58,359 nucleotides of DNA, from contig JAAFKA010000029.1 in NCBI GenBank assembly GCA_013299115.1, positions 1-58,359 on the forward strand, in the 5' to 3' direction. The notes under the pieces were generated by a model. The model was not told where the DNA came from. It saw nothing but the letters and a program-made list of their open reading frames with translations, and ran no database searches. This document shows, one piece after another, positions 23,063 through 57,330 of this stretch. Each line of letters starts with the position of its first letter. Positions within the stretch are counted from its first letter, which is position 1. This DNA comes from Cytophagales bacterium (GTDB lineage Bacteria > Bacteroidota > Bacteroidia > Cytophagales > Thermoflexibacteraceae). Both the position numbers and the translations under genes were made by a program.

Positions 23063-26000
23063 TCATTCCTTCGGCAGAAAAGCTGTTTGCAACTTGTGCC
23101 AAATCCACCACAATTCGGATTTGGTGATGAAGTAAAAAGCCACCAAACCAAGAACTAAAAAGAAAATAAAGCCAAAGAAACTCATAAAATACACGACAAG
23201 CAAAAAGAAAATATAGTTTACTAAAAAACCATAGCCAAACATTTTTTTCCAACGTCTTTTAAACAGAGAATAGACCGCAAAACCCGCAAGGGCAAGGGTA
23301 AACAATGTCGCAATGCCGAAAGTAAACTCCTCAACGCCTAAGCCTGTATAAAACATTAACACATCGTTGAAAGTGGTTTTGCTGATGCCATAAGCCTGTA
23401 TGTCTAAGGTGGGCAAATAGACCGAATTGTTGGGCAATGAGGTACTAAATAACTCGTTGGCATCGTTAGTTGCTTTGAAACCTGCTCGGTGTTGGCTGCT
23501 GTTGAGTTGCCAAAAACGGAGGTTATAGTTGTTGTCAAAGGTCAAGACTTCGGGAGAATTGTGCATTTTTTTCACCCATTTTAGCGGTACGTCATGGTAA
23601 AAATAGTTGTTTGCATAGCCTTGTTTGGTGTTAAAAACAATCACATCATTCAAAGTGCGAACAATCAACAAAGTATCTTCTGCAAATTCTATCTGTTCGG
23701 CATAATTATTCAAAAGTCCATAGCGGAGGCTGTCTGCAAAGTTTTTAAGGGGCAACAAATACAGCGTACTGTCTGCCAACACCGCTGCAAGTTCTTTGTC
23801 GTTGTTGTTCAACTTTATTTGCTGAATAAAGCTACCTGTTTTGACCGACCACTGTTGTTCGCCTTTGCGGTTAAGACTCGTAATCGTATCGCCAATATAG
23901 CCAATGAGTTGCTCGCCATCTTTGGAAATTACTGCCGAACTAAACAACATAGGCTTTTTCCATTCGGCTTGCCACGTGTCCATGTTCCAAAAATTCATAG
24001 TATAGGTTTCGTCTTTCTCCCTCACTTGTACCAAGGCATGGGTCAAATTGTTGGTGAGTACGTCTGAAATATTGATAAAAAATTCAGCATTGTCGGTTAG
24101 TTTTTTAGATTTTTTGGTTGCAATATCATAAACAGTATTCAAATTTCCAGAGAAAATTATCTTTTTGCCGTCTGCCGAAAAATGCACATTTTCGCCATAG
24201 CTGGATTCAAAATCTCGTACAAATTCGCCTTTGTTGGTGTATAGTTGCAAAGCCTCCTTGCTAAAAAAACCTGTTTCAGATTTTACCAACAAATATTTAT
24301 TATCGGGTGAAGCCAACACGTACTCTATGTTTTGTTTGACCGAAAATTTTAGTTTTTCCACAAAATTGGTGTCCAAAACCCTGATAGTTCCTGCCCCCAC
24401 TTTCTCTTTTTCTGTGCTATATTCATAAATTTCTTGTTGGTTGGCAGACAAAACCAATTCTTTTTTGTTGCTATTATACAACATACCATAAATATCTGCA
24501 CTTTCTTTGAGGGTTGCCAAAGCCAAATTGCCTACATCAACCGCAGATTGAGTAAAATGATTATTGGGGTTTTCCTGTCCACGTTGATACACAATTTCGG
24601 CTGCCCTGACCGACATCACCGCATCTTTATATACATTTCGCTGGGCTATGTTGAGCAAAAAGTTGGTTTCTGACAAGTCTTTTTGCATATTGGCTGTCAA
24701 ATAAGCCACCAACGAAACCACCAAAGCCACCATAGAAAAGCCAAACAAACCCCGCAGTTGCCTGATGGTGTTGATTTCCTTTTTTCGGGCTGCTGCCACC
24801 GCCTTGCGACTTTCGGCTATAAATTTTTGTTGCAAATCTGTTGGTTCGGGGTATTTTTTCTGCTGCACCGCCTCTGCCAACCACGCCTCCGCACTCGCCA
24901 CTTCTGCCCCACGCAAAAGCAATTCTGTTTTTTGGTTGTATTTACTCCAATCTGCTGCTTTGCGTCCCCAGTTGGTGTGGCTTTTCACGTACTCTGCATC
25001 AGATTTTAGGCTGCGGTACAGTTGCTCAAAGCCTTTTTCGTAGCTGTGCGAGGGGCGAAGGTCAATCCACTGCACTTGGCTCAACTTGGGCAAAGATTTA
25101 AAAACTTCCTTGCTTTCATTGTCCAAAGTTTCTACTAAAACGGTGCTAATTCTTTTGTTTAATTGGACTGCATACTCCACTTCACCCTTGCAATAAGGCG
25201 AATTAATAGATTTTGGCGAAATGAGGAACAAAAAATTGTCCGATTGGGCTATGCCATTGCGAATTTCCTCCTCAAAATTGGTAGCTCCAACAGGAATACT
25301 CTCTTGGTCAAACCACGTGGTTGTCCCCAAAGTTTGGAGGTCAGTATTGATTTTTCGGGCAAAATCTCCATCATTTCGGGAATAAGAAACAAAAACATCA
25401 GAATTGAGGTTGCCAATTTTTGCTATGCTTGCCTCAATAAATTGTTGGTGCAGGGGCAAAGGTTTGTGTGGCTTGGTGCTGCCTGCTTTTAGCCAATTTC
25501 GGGCATTTGCCAACAAATTGCCTTGCAATAAAATACTGTCGTTGTAGTTTTGGCGTTGCCATTTCAGGGCTTGGCACAAAAAAGTGCGGTGCTGCTCATA
25601 ATAACCATCTTCGGTGTGAATTTCTTTTAAAATATCTGCCAAATCCCTTTCATAATCCACAGGATTGGTGTTGTTTGTAAAATCTATGTATTGCAGTTTG
25701 CTGATAAACGGATTTTCTTGCAACAGGCGAGGGTTTTCCAAATTTTCTATCAACAAAGGAATAATTTTTTTGTTCAATGAATTAGCATAGTGCAATTCTT
25801 TCAAGCACCAATCGGATTGCAGCGAAGCATTGGTGATGAAAAAAAGCATATATTTTGACTGTTCAATGCCCTGAAAAATTGCCTCCTCAAAGTTTTTTCC
25901 TTTGGCTATGTCTTTGTGGTGCAGCCAAGTGGTTACTAAATGTTGCGATAAACTATGATAGACCTCATCACGCAAATCACGACTTTCAGTGTCGTAAGAA

Positions 26001-26854
26001 ATGAAAACATCGGTGAGTAAGTTTTCTGCATTTTTGCGACTTTCGCAAATAAATTCGCCATGCAAATTGGAAATATTGCAAGGAGGCAAGTCGGGTTTCA
26101 CAAAGTCGGTTAAAATCCACTCCTCCGCCTTTTTGCGGTCTGCCCCCACCAGCAAATAACCCACTTCTTTGTTGCCTTTTTGCCACCGCAGAGCCTGCTG
26201 CAAAATGATGGTTTGCTGCTGTACGTAGTCTTTGTGTTTGCCGACCAACCGCAAAACAGCTTCGACTACACTTTCTAAGTCGTCTATGCTTTTGCCAAAA
26301 GTTGGGAATTTGTAGGATTTGAGGTAGTCGGGTTGGTCGTGTTTAAACCAAGAGTTTTCGTAGCTTGCCTGCCAATCAAAAATAGCTTTTAGTTCTTCGG
26401 GTGTGTATTCCTCACGTGCATAGACCCAATCTGCTTTGCCGAGCAAGGCGTGGCTGCGTTTCAGCACGTCTAATTCGGTGTTGATTTCTACGCCTTTGAT
26501 GCCATAAGTTTGGTAAAAATTTATCATCACTTGCTTATCTCCTGCCGACAATTCCTTTGGTGGTGTATCAAAAAGCACAATTTGGGCTAAGGGAATAATC
26601 CTTTTGCCGAGCAACCGAGCATATTCCAACTCCACCAAACAGTAGGGTGAAGTCATGCAACGCGGCGCCATGACGTAGGCAAAGTTATGGGCAGACTCTA
26701 TGCCATGCCAAATCCGTTGCGAATAATCATCTCCATCGGGAATGTTTACCTTGTCGAACCATGCTTCGTAGCCCGCCAATTTGACAAGTTGGTGCAGTCT
26801 GCCTACAAAAACAAGGCTTTCCCGTCTGCCGTAGGAAATAAAAAGGTCTTTCAT
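23063..26854 (-). CDS. Giant membrane protein with three TIR domains and a beta-propeller-like sensor
   Basis: 1263 residues from the ATG at 26854 (a TTG start 11 codons earlier overlaps the upstream gene). There are three TIR domains, at about 1-95, 281-395 and 485-605, each starting with a D/V-F-I/V-S-Y strand. Each keeps the acidic residue expected for NADase activity (CLVELEYA E75, CLKELHYA E353, CKGEVEYA E558). Each TIR is followed by a similar alpha-helical module (QALRWQ..LLVGAD..AEEWI; QALKWQ..LLQGN..ARNWL; AADWSK..LLRGAE..AEAWL), so the TIR-plus-module unit is triplicated. A transmembrane helix follows (about 701-721), then a beta-strand-rich, propeller-like region (about 795-1120) and two or three C-terminal membrane segments. 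It is in an operon with the DUF1016 gene 13 bases upstream. The likely role is a stress- or phage-responsive effector (inference). Confidence 0.85.
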   Translation of the reverse strand: MKDLFISYGRRESLVFVGRLHQLVKLAGYEAWFDKVNIPDGDDYSQRIWHGIESAHNFAYVMAPRCMTSPYCLVELEYARLLGKRIIPLAQIVLFDTPPKELSAGDKQVMINFYQTYGIKGVEINTELDVLKRSHALLGKADWVYAREEYTPEELKAIFDWQASYENSWFKHDQPDYLKSYKFPTFGKSIDDLESVVEAVLRLVGKHKDYVQQQTIILQQALRWQKGNKEVGYLLVGADRKKAEEWILTDFVKPDLPPCNISNLHGEFICESRKNAENLLTDVFISYDTESRDLRDEVYHSLSQHLVTTWLHHKDIAKGKNFEEAIFQGIEQSKYMLFFITNASLQSDWCLKELHYANSLNKKIIPLLIENLENPRLLQENPFISKLQYIDFTNNTNPVDYERDLADILKEIHTEDGYYEQHRTFLCQALKWQRQNYNDSILLQGNLLANARNWLKAGSTKPHKPLPLHQQFIEASIAKIGNLNSDVFVSYSRNDGDFARKINTDLQTLGTTTWFDQESIPVGATNFEEEIRNGIAQSDNFLFLISPKSINSPYCKGEVEYAVQLNKRISTVLVETLDNESKEVFKSLPKLSQVQWIDLRPSHSYEKGFEQLYRSLKSDAEYVKSHTNWGRKAADWSKYNQKTELLLRGAEVASAEAWLAEAVQQKKYPEPTDLQQKFIAESRKAVAAARKKEINTIRQLRGLFGFSMVALVVSLVAYLTANMQKDLSETNFLLNIAQRNVYKDAVMSVRAAEIVYQRGQENPNNHFTQSAVDVGNLALATLKESADIYGMLYNSNKKELVLSANQQEIYEYSTEKEKVGAGTIRVLDTNFVEKLKFSVKQNIEYVLASPDNKYLLVKSETGFFSKEALQLYTNKGEFVRDFESSYGENVHFSADGKKIIFSGNLNTVYDIATKKSKKLTDNAEFFINISDVLTNNLTHALVQVREKDETYTMNFWNMDTWQAEWKKPMLFSSAVISKDGEQLIGYIGDTITSLNRKGEQQWSVKTGSFIQQIKLNNNDKELAAVLADSTLYLLPLKNFADSLRYGLLNNYAEQIEFAEDTLLIVRTLNDVIVFNTKQGYANNYFYHDVPLKWVKKMHNSPEVLTFDNNYNLRFWQLNSSQHRAGFKATNDANELFSTSLPNNSVYLPTLDIQAYGISKTTFNDVLMFYTGLGVEEFTFGIATLFTLALAGFAVYSLFKRRWKKMFGYGFLVNYIFFLLVVYFMSFFGFIFFLVLGLVAFYFITKSELWWIWHKLQTAFLPKE

Positions 26855-26867
26855 TGCAAGAAAAAAG

Positions 26868-27851
26868 TTACCAATTAATTTTGTCAATTAAAATTTTGAG
26901 TTCGGCAGCCGTAGGCAAGTAAAGTTGATATTGAGCAACCAATAACTGACTTTGCATACCATAAGTAGCATACTCTACTAATAATTCGTCTTTTTGACGA
27001 GTAAGTATAATTCCTATGGGTTCTTTGTCGCCTGTAGAGTTTCGTTCTTTGGCAAAATACCCCAAATACATATTCATTTGTCCTATGTCATAATGTTTTA
27101 CTTTGTCTATTTTAAGGTCTATCAAAACAAAACATTTCAAAATATAGTGATAAAAAACCAAATCCACATAAAAATGTTCGTTGTCAATCGTCATACGATA
27201 TTGTCTGCCCAAAAAAGCAAAACCTTTGCCTAATTCCAATAAAAAAGATTGCAAATTATCTATCAATCCTTTTTCTAATTCTTTTTCGGAGAGGTGATAA
27301 GGTTCGGGAATTTTTAGAAACTCAAAAATATAGGGTTCTTTCAACAAGTCTTCTGCTTGTTGAATTTCTTGTCCTTGTTGTGCTAATTGTAGGATTTGTT
27401 CGGTATCTTTTCCACTTGCCAACCGCAAAAATAAAGCACTATCTTTTTGGCGTTTGAGTTCCCGCACCGACCAGTTTTCCTTTATACATTGTTTTTCATA
27501 AAAACTTCTTTCCAATTCGTGTGAGATTTTCAACAATTCTACATGATGCGACCAACTCAATTTTTGCGACACCGTCGCAAAAATTGGAAATGAAACATAA
27601 AATTGTCTGCAACGTGCCAAATTGCTATGACTAAATCCTTTGCCCAAAGGCAGTAAATCTTGGGCTAAGTTGCGGAGTAGTTGGCTACCATAATGGGCTT
27701 TGTCTTGTCCTTTTTGTTCATATTCCACAATGTATGCCCCAATTTGCCAATAACTTTCCAGCAATTCACGATTAGCCGTCTGAAAAACCTGTATCCTACT
27801 TTGCTGGTAGGTTTGCGTGATTTGATTTAAAAGGTTTTGATAAAGTATCAT
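26868..27851 (-). CDS. DUF1016/YhcG-type PDDEXK nuclease
   Basis: A 327-residue protein of the YhcG family: N-terminal helical domain (NRELLESYWQIGAYIVEYEQ, GFSHSNLARCRQFY, ENWSVRELKRQKDS) and C-terminal PD-(D/E)XK domain (about 190-300: GFAFLGRQYRMTI, FYVDLVFYH, LIDLKIDKVKHYDIGQMNMY). The catalytic pair is D...D-x-K, with Asp where most relatives have Glu. It ends with the family tail YQLYLPTAAELK. I chose the ATG at 27851. It lies directly upstream of the triple-TIR gene, same strand, 13 bases apart. Relatives often occur in phage-defence and restriction loci. Confidence 0.88.
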   Translation of the reverse strand: MILYQNLLNQITQTYQQSRIQVFQTANRELLESYWQIGAYIVEYEQKGQDKAHYGSQLLRNLAQDLLPLGKGFSHSNLARCRQFYVSFPIFATVSQKLSWSHHVELLKISHELERSFYEKQCIKENWSVRELKRQKDSALFLRLASGKDTEQILQLAQQGQEIQQAEDLLKEPYIFEFLKIPEPYHLSEKELEKGLIDNLQSFLLELGKGFAFLGRQYRMTIDNEHFYVDLVFYHYILKCFVLIDLKIDKVKHYDIGQMNMYLGYFAKERNSTGDKEPIGIILTRQKDELLVEYATYGMQSQLLVAQYQLYLPTAAELKILIDKINW

Positions 27852-27866
27852 GGGCAATAAGATTTT

Positions 27867-29377: not shown

Positions 29378-31702
29378 TTATCTTTTCAAAAACCCATGTT
29401 CATAAATTTTCGGCTCTATTTTTTTTGCCAAAACTTCCAAACTTTCTCTCAAATCAGCCAACAATTCATTATATTTTTCGTCTGCACTTTTGTTGTTCAT
29501 TTTGCCTGCTGCGTTTCTGCCCTGAAAATAGGCTTTGATGTCGTACAGCGAGGCATTAATTACTTCTTTGTTGGCTGCAATGGGTAGTTTTTTTACTGTT
29601 TGGTGGTAATAAATCCACAACTTTTTGCCAGCCTCAAAAACAGCTTGGGTTTCGGCAGAAAATACTATTTTTTCTCTTTTCAAGTTGCCAACAGGTTGAA
29701 ACATAGTAGCTGTTTCTTCTATTTTGAGTTTGCCCAACATAAAATTAGTCAATACGCTACTCTCAAATTTGCCTTGTGGTTGCACTTCTTGTTCGGTAAA
29801 AGGCAACCAATGATTAGTACCCAAATTAGCACTAATAAGGTTTTTCCCATGAAATAGCGTATAAGTCAAAGAATCATTGTGAAACTCATCATCCGCCAGC
29901 CAAGTATCAGAAGGGTATAAAAATTGGTCTTGATTATTTTGCCAAGTATGCTTAATACAATGCCGAACTACAAAATAAACACAAGCAGGCAATAAGTTGT
30001 GTCTATTTAAGGCAAGTGTTGAAATATGGCTTGTAGGCTTGATAGAACACATACGAATTTCTCCATTATGTTGAAAATCATTGCCTAAATAAGCCAAAAA
30101 GCCAATAAAATTATTTTCATTGTTAGCAAATTGCTTAATCCAATGATTGACATATTCCTTTTCGTTGAGAGCCACTATATTTTTTTTCCCCACTAATTTC
30201 TTTTTTTCTACGTAAATATCAGCAGCAATTTGCTCAAATTTAACTTGTTGTTGTGTGTGCCAAATCATAAAACCTATTGGAAACTGTCCCACTACATTAT
30301 CAAAAGTGTTGGCTGGCACAACAAACATTCTTTCTAATTTAGCTAAGAAAAATTGCCTGAAATAAACAAAATTAGAGGACTGTAAAAGTTTTAAAGTAGA
30401 GAAATTGGCAATGGTTGCACCTTGAATTTCTTTGTAAATTCTTGCTAAAAACTGGGCAAATAATTCATTTTTAGCTTTTTTTAGCACCTCTCCATATTTT
30501 ACATACATTTTAGTTTCTTTGGAAACATCTGTTTTCTTTCCGCCTTGTCCAATGCCATCGGTAGCCTCCGCATAAGGCGGATTGATATAGACCACCAATT
30601 TCTTGCGTTTTTCAGCATTGTTGATAATTTCTTGCAAACCTTTGGGCAACTTTGCGAAATCGTCATTGAGGAAGTCAAATTGGAAGACCTGACTTTCCAA
30701 TAAATTTGCCCCATTCTGTATTCTATCTTTCATCACGTCCACGTCTTGCCTGTCCAGCGTAGAAGCCCAAATATTGTACTTGTTCGTAAGCCCTGTTAGC
30801 AAATTGCCTGTGCCTGCTGCACAATCCCAGATGTAGTATTCGTCTTGCCAATCTTCGCCCAGCACTTTTGCCAAATATTCTTGCGACAACTCCACCCAAA
30901 TTTGTGGCGTAAAAAAACTGCCTTTTCTTTCCCTTACATCTTGCGGAACTAACAAATCCCTCCGTTCTACAATATAATCCCAATATTGTTCCTTTGGAGG
31001 TCTTTCATATTTATTCCAAAATTGAGTGTGTGCTTTTTGTTTGTCGTTGAAAGAAGTCCGTTTGAGGTCAAAAATTCCCATTTCATTGAGAGTTTTTTCA
31101 AATTCATAGTAATCTTTTTTCAATAACACATATAAGGTATCTTTCAGGCTTTGATTTTCTGAGGAGAGCAAATCAGCCAAATAAAAATCTGCGTCAATAA
31201 TTCCATTCTTTTTGGCAACTTCCCAATTAAAAATAATTGTAGGTTTGACCGCAGCTAACCATTTGGTATAAATGGTAATAAAATTGTTTTTATCAATTCG
31301 GATTTTTGAAGTGGCAGCATTGCCAACCACAAAATTTGTCTTGATAAATTCACGCAGTTCTTGGTCGTCTTTTTCATAAAAAAACAGCAAAGTTTCGTTC
31401 TCAATCGTAGTTTTTACCTTGTCATAAACTTGCTTAAATTCTTTGGTTTCGTGGTTGGAGGGAGCAACATTCCAATTAAAATCATTTTGGTAGAAAATCT
31501 CCTGAATGGCATTGTAAGGCAGAAAAGTAATTTTTTCGGCATCAAAAGCACCCAAAAAAGGCGGAGGTAGCACCTTGTCAAAAGTACGAGCCTTGCCAAT
31601 AGTCAAAATCAACTGCACCACAGATTTGTAAACGTCTGATACGCCTTTTTTGGCTTCAGCCCAAAGCCCCCCAGCCCCCAAAGGGGGGCTTGGCTCACAC
31701 AA
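29378..31702 (-). CDS. Eco57I-like N6-adenine methyltransferase, nuclease part frameshifted
   Basis: The 774-residue open frame carries the methyltransferase of a type IIG-like restriction-modification protein: FFTPQIWVELS, SAM motif I DCAAGTGN near 293-300, motif IV INPPYAEA near 373-380, and a C-terminal region for target recognition. Residues 13-20 (LWAEAKKG) are the E-x-K half of an N-terminal PD-(D/E)XK nuclease. Its D half is in another frame at 31609-31821. The frames are separated by the GC-rich repeat at 31664-31691. The nominal start MCEPSPP lies in the repeat and is unlikely to be native. The gene is probably broken for restriction but could give a methyltransferase by internal or coupled initiation. 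Confidence 0.8.
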   Translation of the reverse strand: MCEPSPPLGAGGLWAEAKKGVSDVYKSVVQLILTIGKARTFDKVLPPPFLGAFDAEKITFLPYNAIQEIFYQNDFNWNVAPSNHETKEFKQVYDKVKTTIENETLLFFYEKDDQELREFIKTNFVVGNAATSKIRIDKNNFITIYTKWLAAVKPTIIFNWEVAKKNGIIDADFYLADLLSSENQSLKDTLYVLLKKDYYEFEKTLNEMGIFDLKRTSFNDKQKAHTQFWNKYERPPKEQYWDYIVERRDLLVPQDVRERKGSFFTPQIWVELSQEYLAKVLGEDWQDEYYIWDCAAGTGNLLTGLTNKYNIWASTLDRQDVDVMKDRIQNGANLLESQVFQFDFLNDDFAKLPKGLQEIINNAEKRKKLVVYINPPYAEATDGIGQGGKKTDVSKETKMYVKYGEVLKKAKNELFAQFLARIYKEIQGATIANFSTLKLLQSSNFVYFRQFFLAKLERMFVVPANTFDNVVGQFPIGFMIWHTQQQVKFEQIAADIYVEKKKLVGKKNIVALNEKEYVNHWIKQFANNENNFIGFLAYLGNDFQHNGEIRMCSIKPTSHISTLALNRHNLLPACVYFVVRHCIKHTWQNNQDQFLYPSDTWLADDEFHNDSLTYTLFHGKNLISANLGTNHWLPFTEQEVQPQGKFESSVLTNFMLGKLKIEETATMFQPVGNLKREKIVFSAETQAVFEAGKKLWIYYHQTVKKLPIAANKEVINASLYDIKAYFQGRNAAGKMNNKSADEKYNELLADLRESLEVLAKKIEPKIYEHGFLKR

Positions 31703-31821
31703 AAATCCACATTGCCCACAATGGTTTTATAATCAAAATCAGCAAAATAAGTTTCGCCTATTCTGTTTTTTAGCTCTTCTTCTCTCAGGTTTTGTAGATT
31801 TTGTTTCATTGGTTGTAACAT
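31609..31821 (-). pseudogene. N-terminal fragment of the restriction-modification gene
   Basis: About 70 codons. The first 40 or so (NLREEELKNRIGETYFADFD, KTIVGNVDFCV) are the natural N-terminus of the nuclease domain, with the Asp of VDF as probable metal ligand. After the GC-rich repeat the frame is wrong and stops at 31609, about 90 bases inside the 774-residue frame, so translational coupling is possible. Correcting the shift would join VDFCV to LWAEAKKG and restore one protein of about 810-820 residues. Confidence 0.75.
31664..31691 (+). repeat. GC-rich repeat copy B inside the restriction gene
   Basis: AAGCCCCCC-agcccccaaa-GGGGGGCTT: nine-base perfectly complementary ends and a C-rich centre. 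It lies between the two halves of the nuclease active site of the gene above and coincides with the change of reading frame. Confidence 0.8.
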
Positions 31822-55032: not shown

Positions 55033-57330
55033 CTACTTAAACATTCCCTTCAATTTCTTCAATTTCTCCTCCATTGTTTCCTCTTTTTCAACCTCTACTT
55101 TTGCGTTGCTATTTGAAGTCGAATAAGATTTTGTTGGGGAATTTCTACCACCATTTTCTTGGGATTTTTGAATTCCCCCTTTGGGGGTTAGGGGGCTTGT
55201 TGGATTTTCCTTCATACTCAACGCAATACGTTTGCGAGGAATATCCACTTCCGTAACCGTAACCTGTATTTTTTGGGCAACTTTCACCACTTCCGAAGGG
55301 TGTTTGATATAACGGTCAGCCATTTGCGAAAGATGCACAAGCCCATCTTGATGCACGCCAATATCGACAAAAGCCCCAAAATCTGTAACATTGGTAACAA
55401 TTCCCGCCAATTTCATTCCGAGTTTCAGGTCTTCCATCGAATTTATGCCTTCTGCAAAGCTAAAAGCCTCAAATTTTTCACGAGGGTCTCTCCCTGGTTT
55501 TGCTAATTCCTTTACAATATCTTGCAAAGTTGGCAAACCTACTTTTTCGGAAACATATTTTTTCAAATCAATTTGTTTTCGCAACTCATCATTTGTCATC
55601 AAATCTTTAACGGTACATTTCAAATCCTTAGCCATTTTCTCCACAATAGCGTAAGTTTCAGGGTGAACTGCACTCGAATCCAAAGGATTTTCAGCATAAC
55701 GAATACGCAAGAAACCTGCTGCTTGCTCAAAGGCTTTTTCGCCTAAACGTGCCACTTTTTTCAATTCGTTGCGAGTTTTGAAAGCACCGTTTTTATTGCG
55801 ATATTCGACAATATTTTTTGCCAAACTTTCGCCCAAACCCGACACATACATCAACAATTCTTTGCTTGCCGTATTCAATTCCACACCAACCGCATTTACG
55901 CAACTCATAACCGTATCGTCAAGGCTTGTTTTTAGCAAACTTTGGTCGACATCGTGCTGATATTGCCCCACACCAATAGCTTTTGGGTCAATTTTTACCA
56001 ATTCTGCCAAGGGGTCAGTCAAACGTCTGCCGATAGAAACCGAGCCACGAACTGTTAAATCATAGTCTGCAAATTCATTTCTTGCCACTTCCGAAGCCGA
56101 ATACACCGAAGCCCCACTTTCATTGACCATGACAACCATAATAGTTTTTGGCAAGCCCAATGAATTGATAAAAGTTTCAGTTTCACGTCCCGCCGTACCA
56201 TTTCCTATGGCTATTGCCTCAATTTCAAACTTTTCGCACAGTTTTTTGATAATTGATGCCGATTTTGCCACTTCTCTTTGTGGTTCGTGAGGATACATAT
56301 TTTCGTTGTGCAACAATTTTCCTTGCTTATCCAAACAAGTAATTTTGCAACCCGACCTAAAACCAGGGTCAATAGCCAAAACATTTTTTTCGCCCAACGG
56401 TGCAGCCATTAATAGTTGCCGCAAATTATCAGCAAAAACTCGTACAGCCTCCTCATCAGCTTTGCGTTTTGAAGTCATACGAATTTCGGTTTCCATCGAA
56501 GGGGCAAGCAACCTTTTATAACCATCTTTCACTGCCATTTTCACCTGTTCGCCAGCCTTGTTGTTTGCCTTCACAAACAAATTTTCTAACATTGCGATAG
56601 CATCTTCTTCTTCGGGCAAACTTTCCAGTGAAATAATCATTTCTTTTTCGGCTCTCCGCATTGCTAACACTCGGTGCGAAGGTGCTTTTGCTATTTCCTC
56701 ATTCCACTCAAAATAATCTTTGTATTTTGCCCCTTCCGTTTCTTTGCCTGCAATCACTTTTGCCTTGAATTTGCCTTGTTTTTCAAACAAATTTCGCATA
56801 GCCCCGCGTGCGGTTTGGTCTTCGTTTATTTTTTCGGCAATAATATCCCTTGCCCCAGCCAAAGCCTCCTCCAGATTTTTTACGCCTTTTTCGTCATTGA
56901 TAAACGTAGCTGCAAAAGCATCGAGGTCAAATTTTTCTTGCAAAAACAGCTTATCCGCCAAAGGTTCAAGCCCTTTTTCTCTTGCAATAGTTGCCCTTGT
57001 GCGGCGTTTTGGTTTGAAAGGCAAATAAATATCTTCCAAAACTGCCATGGTTTCGGCTGCTTGAATTTTGGTTTCGAGTTCAGGAGTCAATTTGCCCATT
57101 TCGGTCATCGATGCCAAAATAGCTTCTCTGCGTTTGTCCAATTCACGAAGTTGCTCAATTCTATCACGAACCGCAGCTACTTGCACCTCGTCCAGACTTC
57201 CTGTAACTTCTTTGCGATAACGACTAATGAAAGGCACAGTTCCGCCTTCGTCCAATAATTGTGTAGTTGCCTCAACTTGTTGGTACGTAATGTTGAGTTC
57301 GGAGGCAATGATTACAAAGTTTTTTTCCAT
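55033..57330 (-). CDS. tex: Tex-type RNA-binding transcription accessory protein
   Basis: 765 residues. Order: helical Tex N-terminal domain (LDEGGTVPFISRYRKE, LEDIYLPFKPKRRTRATIA), YqgF/RNase H-like domain (VLAIDPGFRSGCKITCLD near 325), helix-hairpin-helix pair (YVSGLGESLAKNIVEYRN) and S1 RNA-binding domain (about 635-705: GMKLAGIVTNVTDFGAFVDI, DGLVHLSQMADRYI). After the S1 domain (KENPTSPLTPKGGIQK) the GC-rich repeat (55171-55198) is translated in frame, extending the tail. The 3' end is duplicated at 53327 and 52648. Confidence 0.95.
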   Translation of the reverse strand: MEKNFVIIASELNITYQQVEATTQLLDEGGTVPFISRYRKEVTGSLDEVQVAAVRDRIEQLRELDKRREAILASMTEMGKLTPELETKIQAAETMAVLEDIYLPFKPKRRTRATIAREKGLEPLADKLFLQEKFDLDAFAATFINDEKGVKNLEEALAGARDIIAEKINEDQTARGAMRNLFEKQGKFKAKVIAGKETEGAKYKDYFEWNEEIAKAPSHRVLAMRRAEKEMIISLESLPEEEDAIAMLENLFVKANNKAGEQVKMAVKDGYKRLLAPSMETEIRMTSKRKADEEAVRVFADNLRQLLMAAPLGEKNVLAIDPGFRSGCKITCLDKQGKLLHNENMYPHEPQREVAKSASIIKKLCEKFEIEAIAIGNGTAGRETETFINSLGLPKTIMVVMVNESGASVYSASEVARNEFADYDLTVRGSVSIGRRLTDPLAELVKIDPKAIGVGQYQHDVDQSLLKTSLDDTVMSCVNAVGVELNTASKELLMYVSGLGESLAKNIVEYRNKNGAFKTRNELKKVARLGEKAFEQAAGFLRIRYAENPLDSSAVHPETYAIVEKMAKDLKCTVKDLMTNDELRKQIDLKKYVSEKVGLPTLQDIVKELAKPGRDPREKFEAFSFAEGINSMEDLKLGMKLAGIVTNVTDFGAFVDIGVHQDGLVHLSQMADRYIKHPSEVVKVAQKIQVTVTEVDIPRKRIALSMKENPTSPLTPKGGIQKSQENGGRNSPTKSYSTSNSNAKVEVEKEETMEEKLKKLKGMFK
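55171..55198 (-). repeat. GC-rich repeat copy C, in frame inside tex
   Basis: On the minus strand AAGCCCCCT-aacccccaaa-GGGGGAATT. It encodes roughly SPLTPKGGI in the disordered tail of Tex, so it is tolerated as coding sequence. Confidence 0.8.

Follow-up and report, generated by a model that had tools for sequence, protein, structure and literature searches.

Type IIG restriction enzymes such as BpuSI and DrdV (MmeI being classed as IIL) carry an N-terminal PD-(D/E)XK-type nuclease motif, an N6-adenine-type methyltransferase and a target-recognition region in a single chain. We analysed a gene family with the same order of parts, one member of which lies on the minus strand, positions 29378-31821, of a 58,359-nt stretch of a Cytophagales genome (assembly GCA_013299115.1, contig JAAFKA010000029.1); the whole stretch is called the window. 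Unlike the known Type IIG enzymes, this family has seven paralogs in one genome and palindromic coding inserts in the active-site loop of the nuclease, and the window copy is not one reading frame. In-frame palindromes in bacterial proteins are already known; the route by which they arrive there is, to our knowledge, open. We conclude, with a probability of roughly 0.65, that the window copy is a recently frame-broken member of a seven-gene Type IIG-like family, the loop of which is recurrently filled by GC-rich palindromes that usually keep the frame. Two kinds of coding palindrome are the closest described cases. The accessible part of PMC6649704 describes the Rickettsia palindromic elements (RPE) as in-frame coding palindromes in unrelated protein genes, and that of PMC3733652 describes repetitive extragenic palindromes (REP) of the GTAG and CGTC families, GC-rich hairpins that occur singly or in pairs and keep the frame within genes for repair proteins and tRNA synthetases.

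The preliminary description of this locus had placed the two halves of the nuclease motif, VDFCV (D half) and LWAEAKKG (E-x-K half), in different frames flanking a GC-rich repeat at 31664-31691; re-reading of the frames bore this out, and the repeat is a palindrome. The N-terminal frame starts at the ATG at 31821, reads MLQPMKQNLQNLREEELKNRIGETYFADFDYKTIVGNVDFCVSQAPLWG..., carries GNVDFCV, passes through the palindrome and stops after 70 codons at a TGA (31609-31611). LWAEAKKG lies in a different frame, which from 31666 stays open for 762 codons down to 29378; the first ATG of this methylase frame is at 31081 (codon 196), and a TTG is present at 31702. In the window copy, nuclease and methyltransferase are not in one open frame. 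The methyltransferase part is open as described earlier, while the 774 codons given for it result from a mechanical TTG start of the LWAEAKKG frame. The features of the gene are as follows.

31609..31821, minus strand: N-terminal reading frame of 70 codons, bearing the D half-motif of the nuclease (open reading frame, ORF, reading)
31705..31707, minus strand: GAT codon, catalytic Asp of GNVDF, equivalent to D33 of an intact paralog (Asp conserved in the homologue alignment)
31664..31691, minus strand: GC-rich palindrome, a single half-element with core CCCCCTTTGGGGG (pattern match, genome counts, DNA folding)
31655..31657, minus strand: GAA codon, catalytic Glu of LWAEAKKG, in the methyltransferase frame (Glu and Lys conserved in the alignment)
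29378..31666, minus strand: second frame, 762 codons, holding what follows of the Type IIG-like enzyme (ORF reading); as read from a paralog model, remainder of the nuclease, helical part, N6-adenine-type methyltransferase and target-recognition region
30572..30583, minus strand: NPPY motif of an amino-methyltransferase (invariant in 84 homologue rows)
31645..31651, minus strand: A_AAA_AAG heptamer in the N-terminal frame, within the overlap of the two frames; candidate frameshift site (sequence)

We compared the active-site loop, taken from GN[VI]DF to WAEAK, across paralogs and homologues (107 rows, some genes appearing twice, and one 384-nt row being an artefact of the regular expression). 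For eight of the 80 loci L021-L100 this search yielded no row, and they were checked by alignment instead. The two halves were in frame in 104 of the 107 rows; the three exceptions are the window gene, counted twice, and a second paralog of the same genome, C74. In repeat-free homologues the loop is mostly 54 nt (about 18 residues; range 30-93 nt) and in frame. Repeat-free homologues having the same two frames, which would have refuted the preliminary description, did not turn up.

The genome of the window (G000; 5.5 Mb, 74 contigs, the window being on contig C22) has seven full-length family members, with 66-100 percent identity to the window ORF. GC-rich palindromes lie in the loop of all seven, in two of the three genes of G001 (L106 and L108, the third, L107, having no palindrome in its loop) and on one further Cytophagales contig (L034). 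Six of the seven loops of G000 carry the core family, and C11b carries another GC-rich inverted repeat. The palindrome-bearing loops are in frame in five of these seven paralogs and in L106, L108 and L034, and out of frame in the window gene and C74. The preliminary description had taken the insertion of the repeat to disarm restriction. As put, this was not supported by the sister genes, and the repeat is not special to the window gene; a one-off insert there was rejected since GC-rich palindromes stand at the same place in all seven paralogs.

The cause of the split in the window copy is the length of its palindrome tract. Its loop is 38 nt long, as against 78-143 nt in the other six paralogs (108 nt each in C8 and C11a, 143 nt in C74), and has the left and right ends of the C8 and C11a loops with the middle gone. 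A one-base homopolymer slip is not favoured as the whole cause, the loop being about 70 nt shorter than in C8 and C11a. The phase of the break in C74 is the same as in the window copy. The loop between the Asp-adjacent strand and the E-x-K strand is read as a recurrent palindrome site, where palindromes in frame are probably translated as a flexible loop and tolerated catalytically. In the window copy a single half-element would be left, with a length that breaks the frame; the simplest route is a deletion between the C-runs of two half-elements, which fits because the loop retains the C8/C11a ends without the middle. Asp and E-x-K would then no longer be in one chain, with the methylase part staying open.

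The family was matched in 22 of 98 genomes searched, its own included, and its N-terminal part in 35 of 291 genomes of a larger sample; all 12 scored candidates from G000 trace back to the seven paralogs already named. Among loci fetched without motif selection, 80 of 80 had the motif: the Asp was present in 87 of 87 aligned segments and the Glu and Lys in 86 of 86, the Lys of E-x-K standing two residues after the conserved Glu. Motif invariance in the alignment of 84 homologue rows is not independent evidence, as its rows were chosen by that motif; in the same rows the AdoMet motif DCAAGTGN and NPPY are conserved in the same chain. The window ORF matched no profile of Pfam at E up to 10, of NCBIfam or PHROGs at E up to 1, or of PADLOC at E up to 0.001. 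Sequence matches in the PDB, for the single sequence (VEGFR2, ferritin, antibody chains) and for the profile (Rab proteins), were set aside as chance, judging by their names.

For the in-frame paralog C11a (833 aa), an AlphaFold model built with the 84 motif-chosen homologues had a mean predicted local distance difference test (pLDDT) value of 83.5. Its first Foldseek matches were BpuSI and DrdV (E 2.5e-10 and 1.7e-8, 630-662 columns), which upheld the earlier view of a type IIG-like enzyme. Over the whole chain the template modelling (TM) score against these two was only 0.24-0.26 (root-mean-square deviation, rmsd, 14-16). In a structure comparison with the same model the highest Z values were those of DrdV, LlaGI, LlaBIII and BpuSI (DrdV 18.8, rmsd 14.1, 353 aligned; BpuSI 16.4, rmsd 3.5, 232 aligned). 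Methyltransferase structures match the model, and most structural rows span residues 312-829 only; because these rows cover the methyltransferase onward, the nuclease fold rests on the motif and the strand order. In this whole-chain model the N-terminal domain has strands and a helix in an order plausible for PD-(D/E)XK. One strand (34-37) follows D33, another (68-74) contains E73, and the insert residues 42-65 between them have pLDDT <50. The palindrome insert would thus be a loop between the two catalytic halves, and the site need not be disrupted as long as the frame is kept. In-frame palindromes in the same loop of the paralogs and its low confidence in the model both indicate that insertion need not break the enzyme. 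Inserts can sit between two catalytic nuclease halves with the frame kept, and the length of the tract may then decide whether a potentially self-toxic nuclease is made.

We also compared the window copy with the six other paralogs by pairwise ratios of nonsynonymous to synonymous substitution rates (dN/dS), the nuclease part being the first 95 codons from LWAEAK. This part gave dN/dS of 0.03-0.08 at dS 0.18-0.29, with 2-4 nonsynonymous differences per pair; the methyltransferase part gave dS from 0.88 to saturated and dN/dS of 0.14-0.24 where defined. In the locus set for dN/dS, the 'long' rows and many of the loci without a short pair are noise from a regular expression stricter than that of the loop search. 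These pairwise values show no sign of relaxed constraint in the window copy, and the low values in its nuclease part imply that the break is young, or not real, or that the frame is still used. Among the seven paralogs the nuclease part is nearly alike (dS about 0.2), with the methyltransferase and recognition parts much more diverged; gene conversion or domain shuffling is suggested by this pattern.

Family fragments with internal stops exist elsewhere (for example on G003 C314 and G010 C13), so decay is not limited to copies with a palindrome. At L107 in G001, a relative from the same genus, a methylase-only ORF of 534 aa (from 3733) lies directly downstream of the full-length Type IIG-like gene, so the methylase half of the family also exists as a gene. 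The window copy may possibly have kept methylation. That restriction is off and methylation on in this copy, by decay or by switching, is a fair hypothesis.

The palindrome of the window (31665-31687 at 0 mismatches) was matched twice in the window at up to 3 mismatches and never in 100 shuffles. As DNA it folds into a hairpin of -13.4 kcal/mol (z -2.6), with 2 of 200 shuffles doing as well; the hairpin of the other copy, listed next, is weaker (z -1.4).

55175..55197, minus strand: second palindrome copy; it is in frame and falls within the C-terminal tail of a protein with an S1 domain (ORF 55033-57330), which we take to be Tex (pattern match)

The core CCCCCNAAGGGGG has 97 + 118 = 215 occurrences in G000, whereas its reversed control has 1. 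It is absent in 75 of 98 genomes; counts elsewhere include 355 in G069, 75 in G014, 50 in G031, 35 in G041, 19 in G086, 17 in G001, 15 in G046 and 10 in G091. The half-element consensus of 95 copies is AAGCCCCC[C/T]AACCCCC[A/G]AAGGGGGAGT. It has no GTAG tag: AAG precedes the first C-run, 8 of 95 copies have T where the second letter of the tag would be, and the other end is AGTT.

We grouped 100 of the 215 places, with the window added and the C8 and C11 paralog loops left out, into 60 clusters. Forty of these sit in frames that stay open for 150 nt or more to either side, which shows many in-frame insertions, yet no preference for genes. The palindromes in frame are predicted to be translated into peptides such as SPLTPEGGTDEITSKTPPSGVGGL. 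The 29 of 32 host ORFs that were scanned include leucyl-tRNA synthetase (LeuRS), two AcrB-type pumps, MetH, UvrA and an Mfd-like helicase, among others; acetyl-CoA synthetase and methylmalonyl-CoA mutase are further hosts. Seven of the 29 are restriction-modification proteins, and three have no Pfam match. The palindromes are in frame in unrelated protein genes, as RPE-like coding palindromes are. The likeness to RPE is one of insertion behaviour; the phylum is another, and nuclease-bearing forms occur here at the same sites. On our reading the loop palindromes are part of a class of coding palindromes that is spread over the genome and lies in frame in numerous enzymes. On contigs C41 and C47 of G000 mostly one palindrome variant stands in one orientation every 0.5-5 kb, as though within an array of related genes.

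Nuclease-bearing inserts were found in such enzymes. In MetH, LeuRS and other hosts the inserted nuclease is PF04480 (DUF559), called a Vsr-like PD-(D/E)XK nuclease in the accessible part of PMC12907096. Those observed here are set apart by lying inside housekeeping ORFs, often bracketed by inverted GC-rich repeats. DUF559 was matched in 148 of 291 genomes of the order, many of the matches listed being inside long ORFs. From our own reading of the sequences, we take the hosts at these loci to be LeuRS, MetH, a MutS-like protein and another tRNA synthetase. The only DUF559 match of G000 is in the MetH ORF L130 (contig C11, 144-4511, minus strand), where it lies in frame between palindromic ends (SPLTPEGG ... 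ITSKAPFGGLGA).

The LeuRS genes have two insert sites, at which the rows were partly picked for DUF559, so that the row counts are not frequencies. At site A (31 rows), 24 rows have no insert (8-17 aa), 3 have a palindrome only (33-39 aa, G000 included) and 4 have DUF559 with palindrome-like ends (174-200 aa). At site B (32 rows), 19 have no insert (17-22 aa), 5 have a palindrome-like insert (32-47 aa, again including G000), 5 have DUF559 (178-194 aa) and 3 have AT-rich inserts. When the LeuRS of G000 was aligned with those of 59 genomes, many alignments broke at about 294-323 and 558-594, which are the two insert sites. The same protein site, empty, with the palindrome only, or with palindrome-like ends and a nuclease in related species, provides a candidate mobile form. 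The LeuRS genes of relatives with DUF559 in frame at the two recurrent sites are L151, L152, L153 and L183, and L169, L173, L174, L182 and L186; the AT-rich in-frame inserts at site B (L205, L207, L208) are another repeat-like class and not GC palindromes.

For bracketing repeats, 38 DUF559 loci were fetched, 8 were dropped because the motif was missing, and 30 were examined against ten swapped controls. A bracketing inverted repeat scored above all ten controls in 22 of the 30 loci (16 of 21 embedded, 6 of 9 stand-alone) and not in the other 8, more than one repeat family being involved, the controls being few and sharing repeat families, and several hosts coming from one genus. The core itself was present in 10 of the 38 loci, on both borders in only four of the ten, and elsewhere in the locus or on one side in the rest. 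In the nine palindrome-bearing genomes used to compare DUF559 with Y1 transposases (G000, G001, G014, G031, G041, G046, G069, G086 and G091), the core was found anywhere in the locus at 7 of 11 DUF559 loci and 1 of 18 Y1 loci (Fisher p 0.0014), and on both borders at 4 of 11 (L149, L155, L156, L183) and 0 of 18 (p 0.014), two of these four being the same MetH site in congeners.

These data suggest, short of proof, a mobile element that inserts in frame and bears a nuclease, the coding palindromes being either its remnants or its partners, because the LeuRS sites show the empty state, the palindrome-only state and the state with palindrome-like ends and DUF559. The palindromes may derive from, or have been moved by, palindrome-DUF559-palindrome elements. 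We put forward tentatively, as a possibility clearly short of an even chance, that palindrome-bracketed DUF559 is an in-frame, unspliced, homing-like element of Bacteroidota in flexible enzyme loops, the internal deletion of which leaves coding palindromes that fill the Type IIG loop, and that palindrome number there decides on the nuclease and spares the methylase. Among the matches listed in a literature search, to which most subscription papers are external, no title on DUF559 with palindromes was found.

Several observations weigh against the reading as a whole. The 40 of 60 clusters in open frames are not above the random-insertion expectation for a gene-dense genome, and two genomes with many cores, G069 (355) and G041 (35), have no DUF559 match. 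DUF559 was looked for in the Type IIG loop and none was found (the largest family frame in 291 genomes being 853 aa), so a DUF559 origin of the loop insert is drawn by analogy. With seven near-identical nuclease regions and strong hairpins in one draft assembly, the break may be an assembly error, and the low dN/dS (2-4 nonsynonymous differences per pair) could mean that the frame is intact in the cell.

Among the other explanations, the one that survives best, though we think it somewhat unlikely, is that the palindromes are REP-type sequences of the ordinary kind, that Y1 (RAYT/TnpA-REP) transposases spread them, and that DUF559 plays no role. The window palindrome is, like the GTAG-tagged REP, a high-copy dispersed GC-rich hairpin (215 cores); REPs occur within ORFs, including tRNA synthetase and uvr genes, according to the accessible part of PMC3733652. 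In Bacteroidetes, according to the accessible part of PMC6006769, there are Y1 subclasses with atypical secondary structures on their flanks, copies of which also occur elsewhere. Three Y1_Tnp matches are present in G000, and the palindrome load does not track DUF559, as the counts in G069 and G041 indicate. Against this, the window palindrome, unlike the REPs in the accessible part of PMC3733652, has no GTAG tag (as in the 95-copy consensus) and does not border the Y1 transposases fetched. Only one of the 27 Y1_Tnp loci fetched had the core (at a distance of about 1.1 kb) and none of the three of G000 had it, compared with 10 of 38 DUF559 loci, about half of the Y1 matches having been fetched and a transposase being able to act in trans; the nine-genome comparison given above points the same way. 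RAYT as a local mobiliser is disfavoured by the 1 of 27 loci fetched. One of the Y1 loci carries another palindrome: L110 (G000 contig C35), a Y1-type transposase locus, has seven copies of it around CAACCCCTTCGGGGTTG.

An assembly or sequencing error, which we regard as unlikely, would mean that the real window gene is in frame like the five paralogs and that its short tract is a collapsed or mis-joined hairpin. Such an error would be favoured by the near-identical nuclease regions and repeats of the paralogs, the C8 loop folding into a hairpin of -44 kcal/mol, and by a draft of 74 contigs, and it would account for the conserved appearance of the nuclease part. However, the gap relative to C8 and C11a is about 70 nt and not a single base in a run, and C74 too is out of frame, by a different length, both of which are still compatible with a mis-join.

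Distinctly unlikely, in our view, is a phase-variable switch, where palindrome units would be gained or lost and restriction turned on or off with methylation persisting. In the paralog loops the distance between cores is 26, 27, 32 or 35 nt, the loops range from 38 to 143 nt among the seven paralogs with two out of frame, and phase-variable Type IIG enzymes are known, for instance that of Campylobacter jejuni (accessible part of PMC4889913). The likeness to the latter, the frame switching of a Type IIG gene, is one of idea only; in the present family the unit is a palindrome and the break falls within the nuclease, and the length differences are between paralogs of one assembly, not between isolates. 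Moreover, the methylase frame has no ATG before 31081, though the TTG at 31702 is available. We consider very improbable a programmed -1 frameshift at A_AAA_AAG, which would give a full-length chain without the catalytic Glu, so that a methylase would be made with its nuclease dead. The heptamer belongs to the N-terminal frame and falls within the overlap, a -1 shift enters the methylase frame just past the E-x-K region and C74 has the same phase, but the A-run is simply the conserved Lys-Lys-Gly codons, and two of two in the same phase are expected half the time.

Near the restriction gene, the window contains two overlapping genes on the minus strand. One (23063-26887) encodes a protein of 1274 aa in which several stretches are of TIR type (models ThsB and Aga_TIR of PADLOC; NCBIfam ThcB4 below the cut-off), and the other (26868-27857) is a YhcG/DUF1016 nuclease gene (PDC-S02). 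These two genes are likely to form a defence cluster near the restriction gene.

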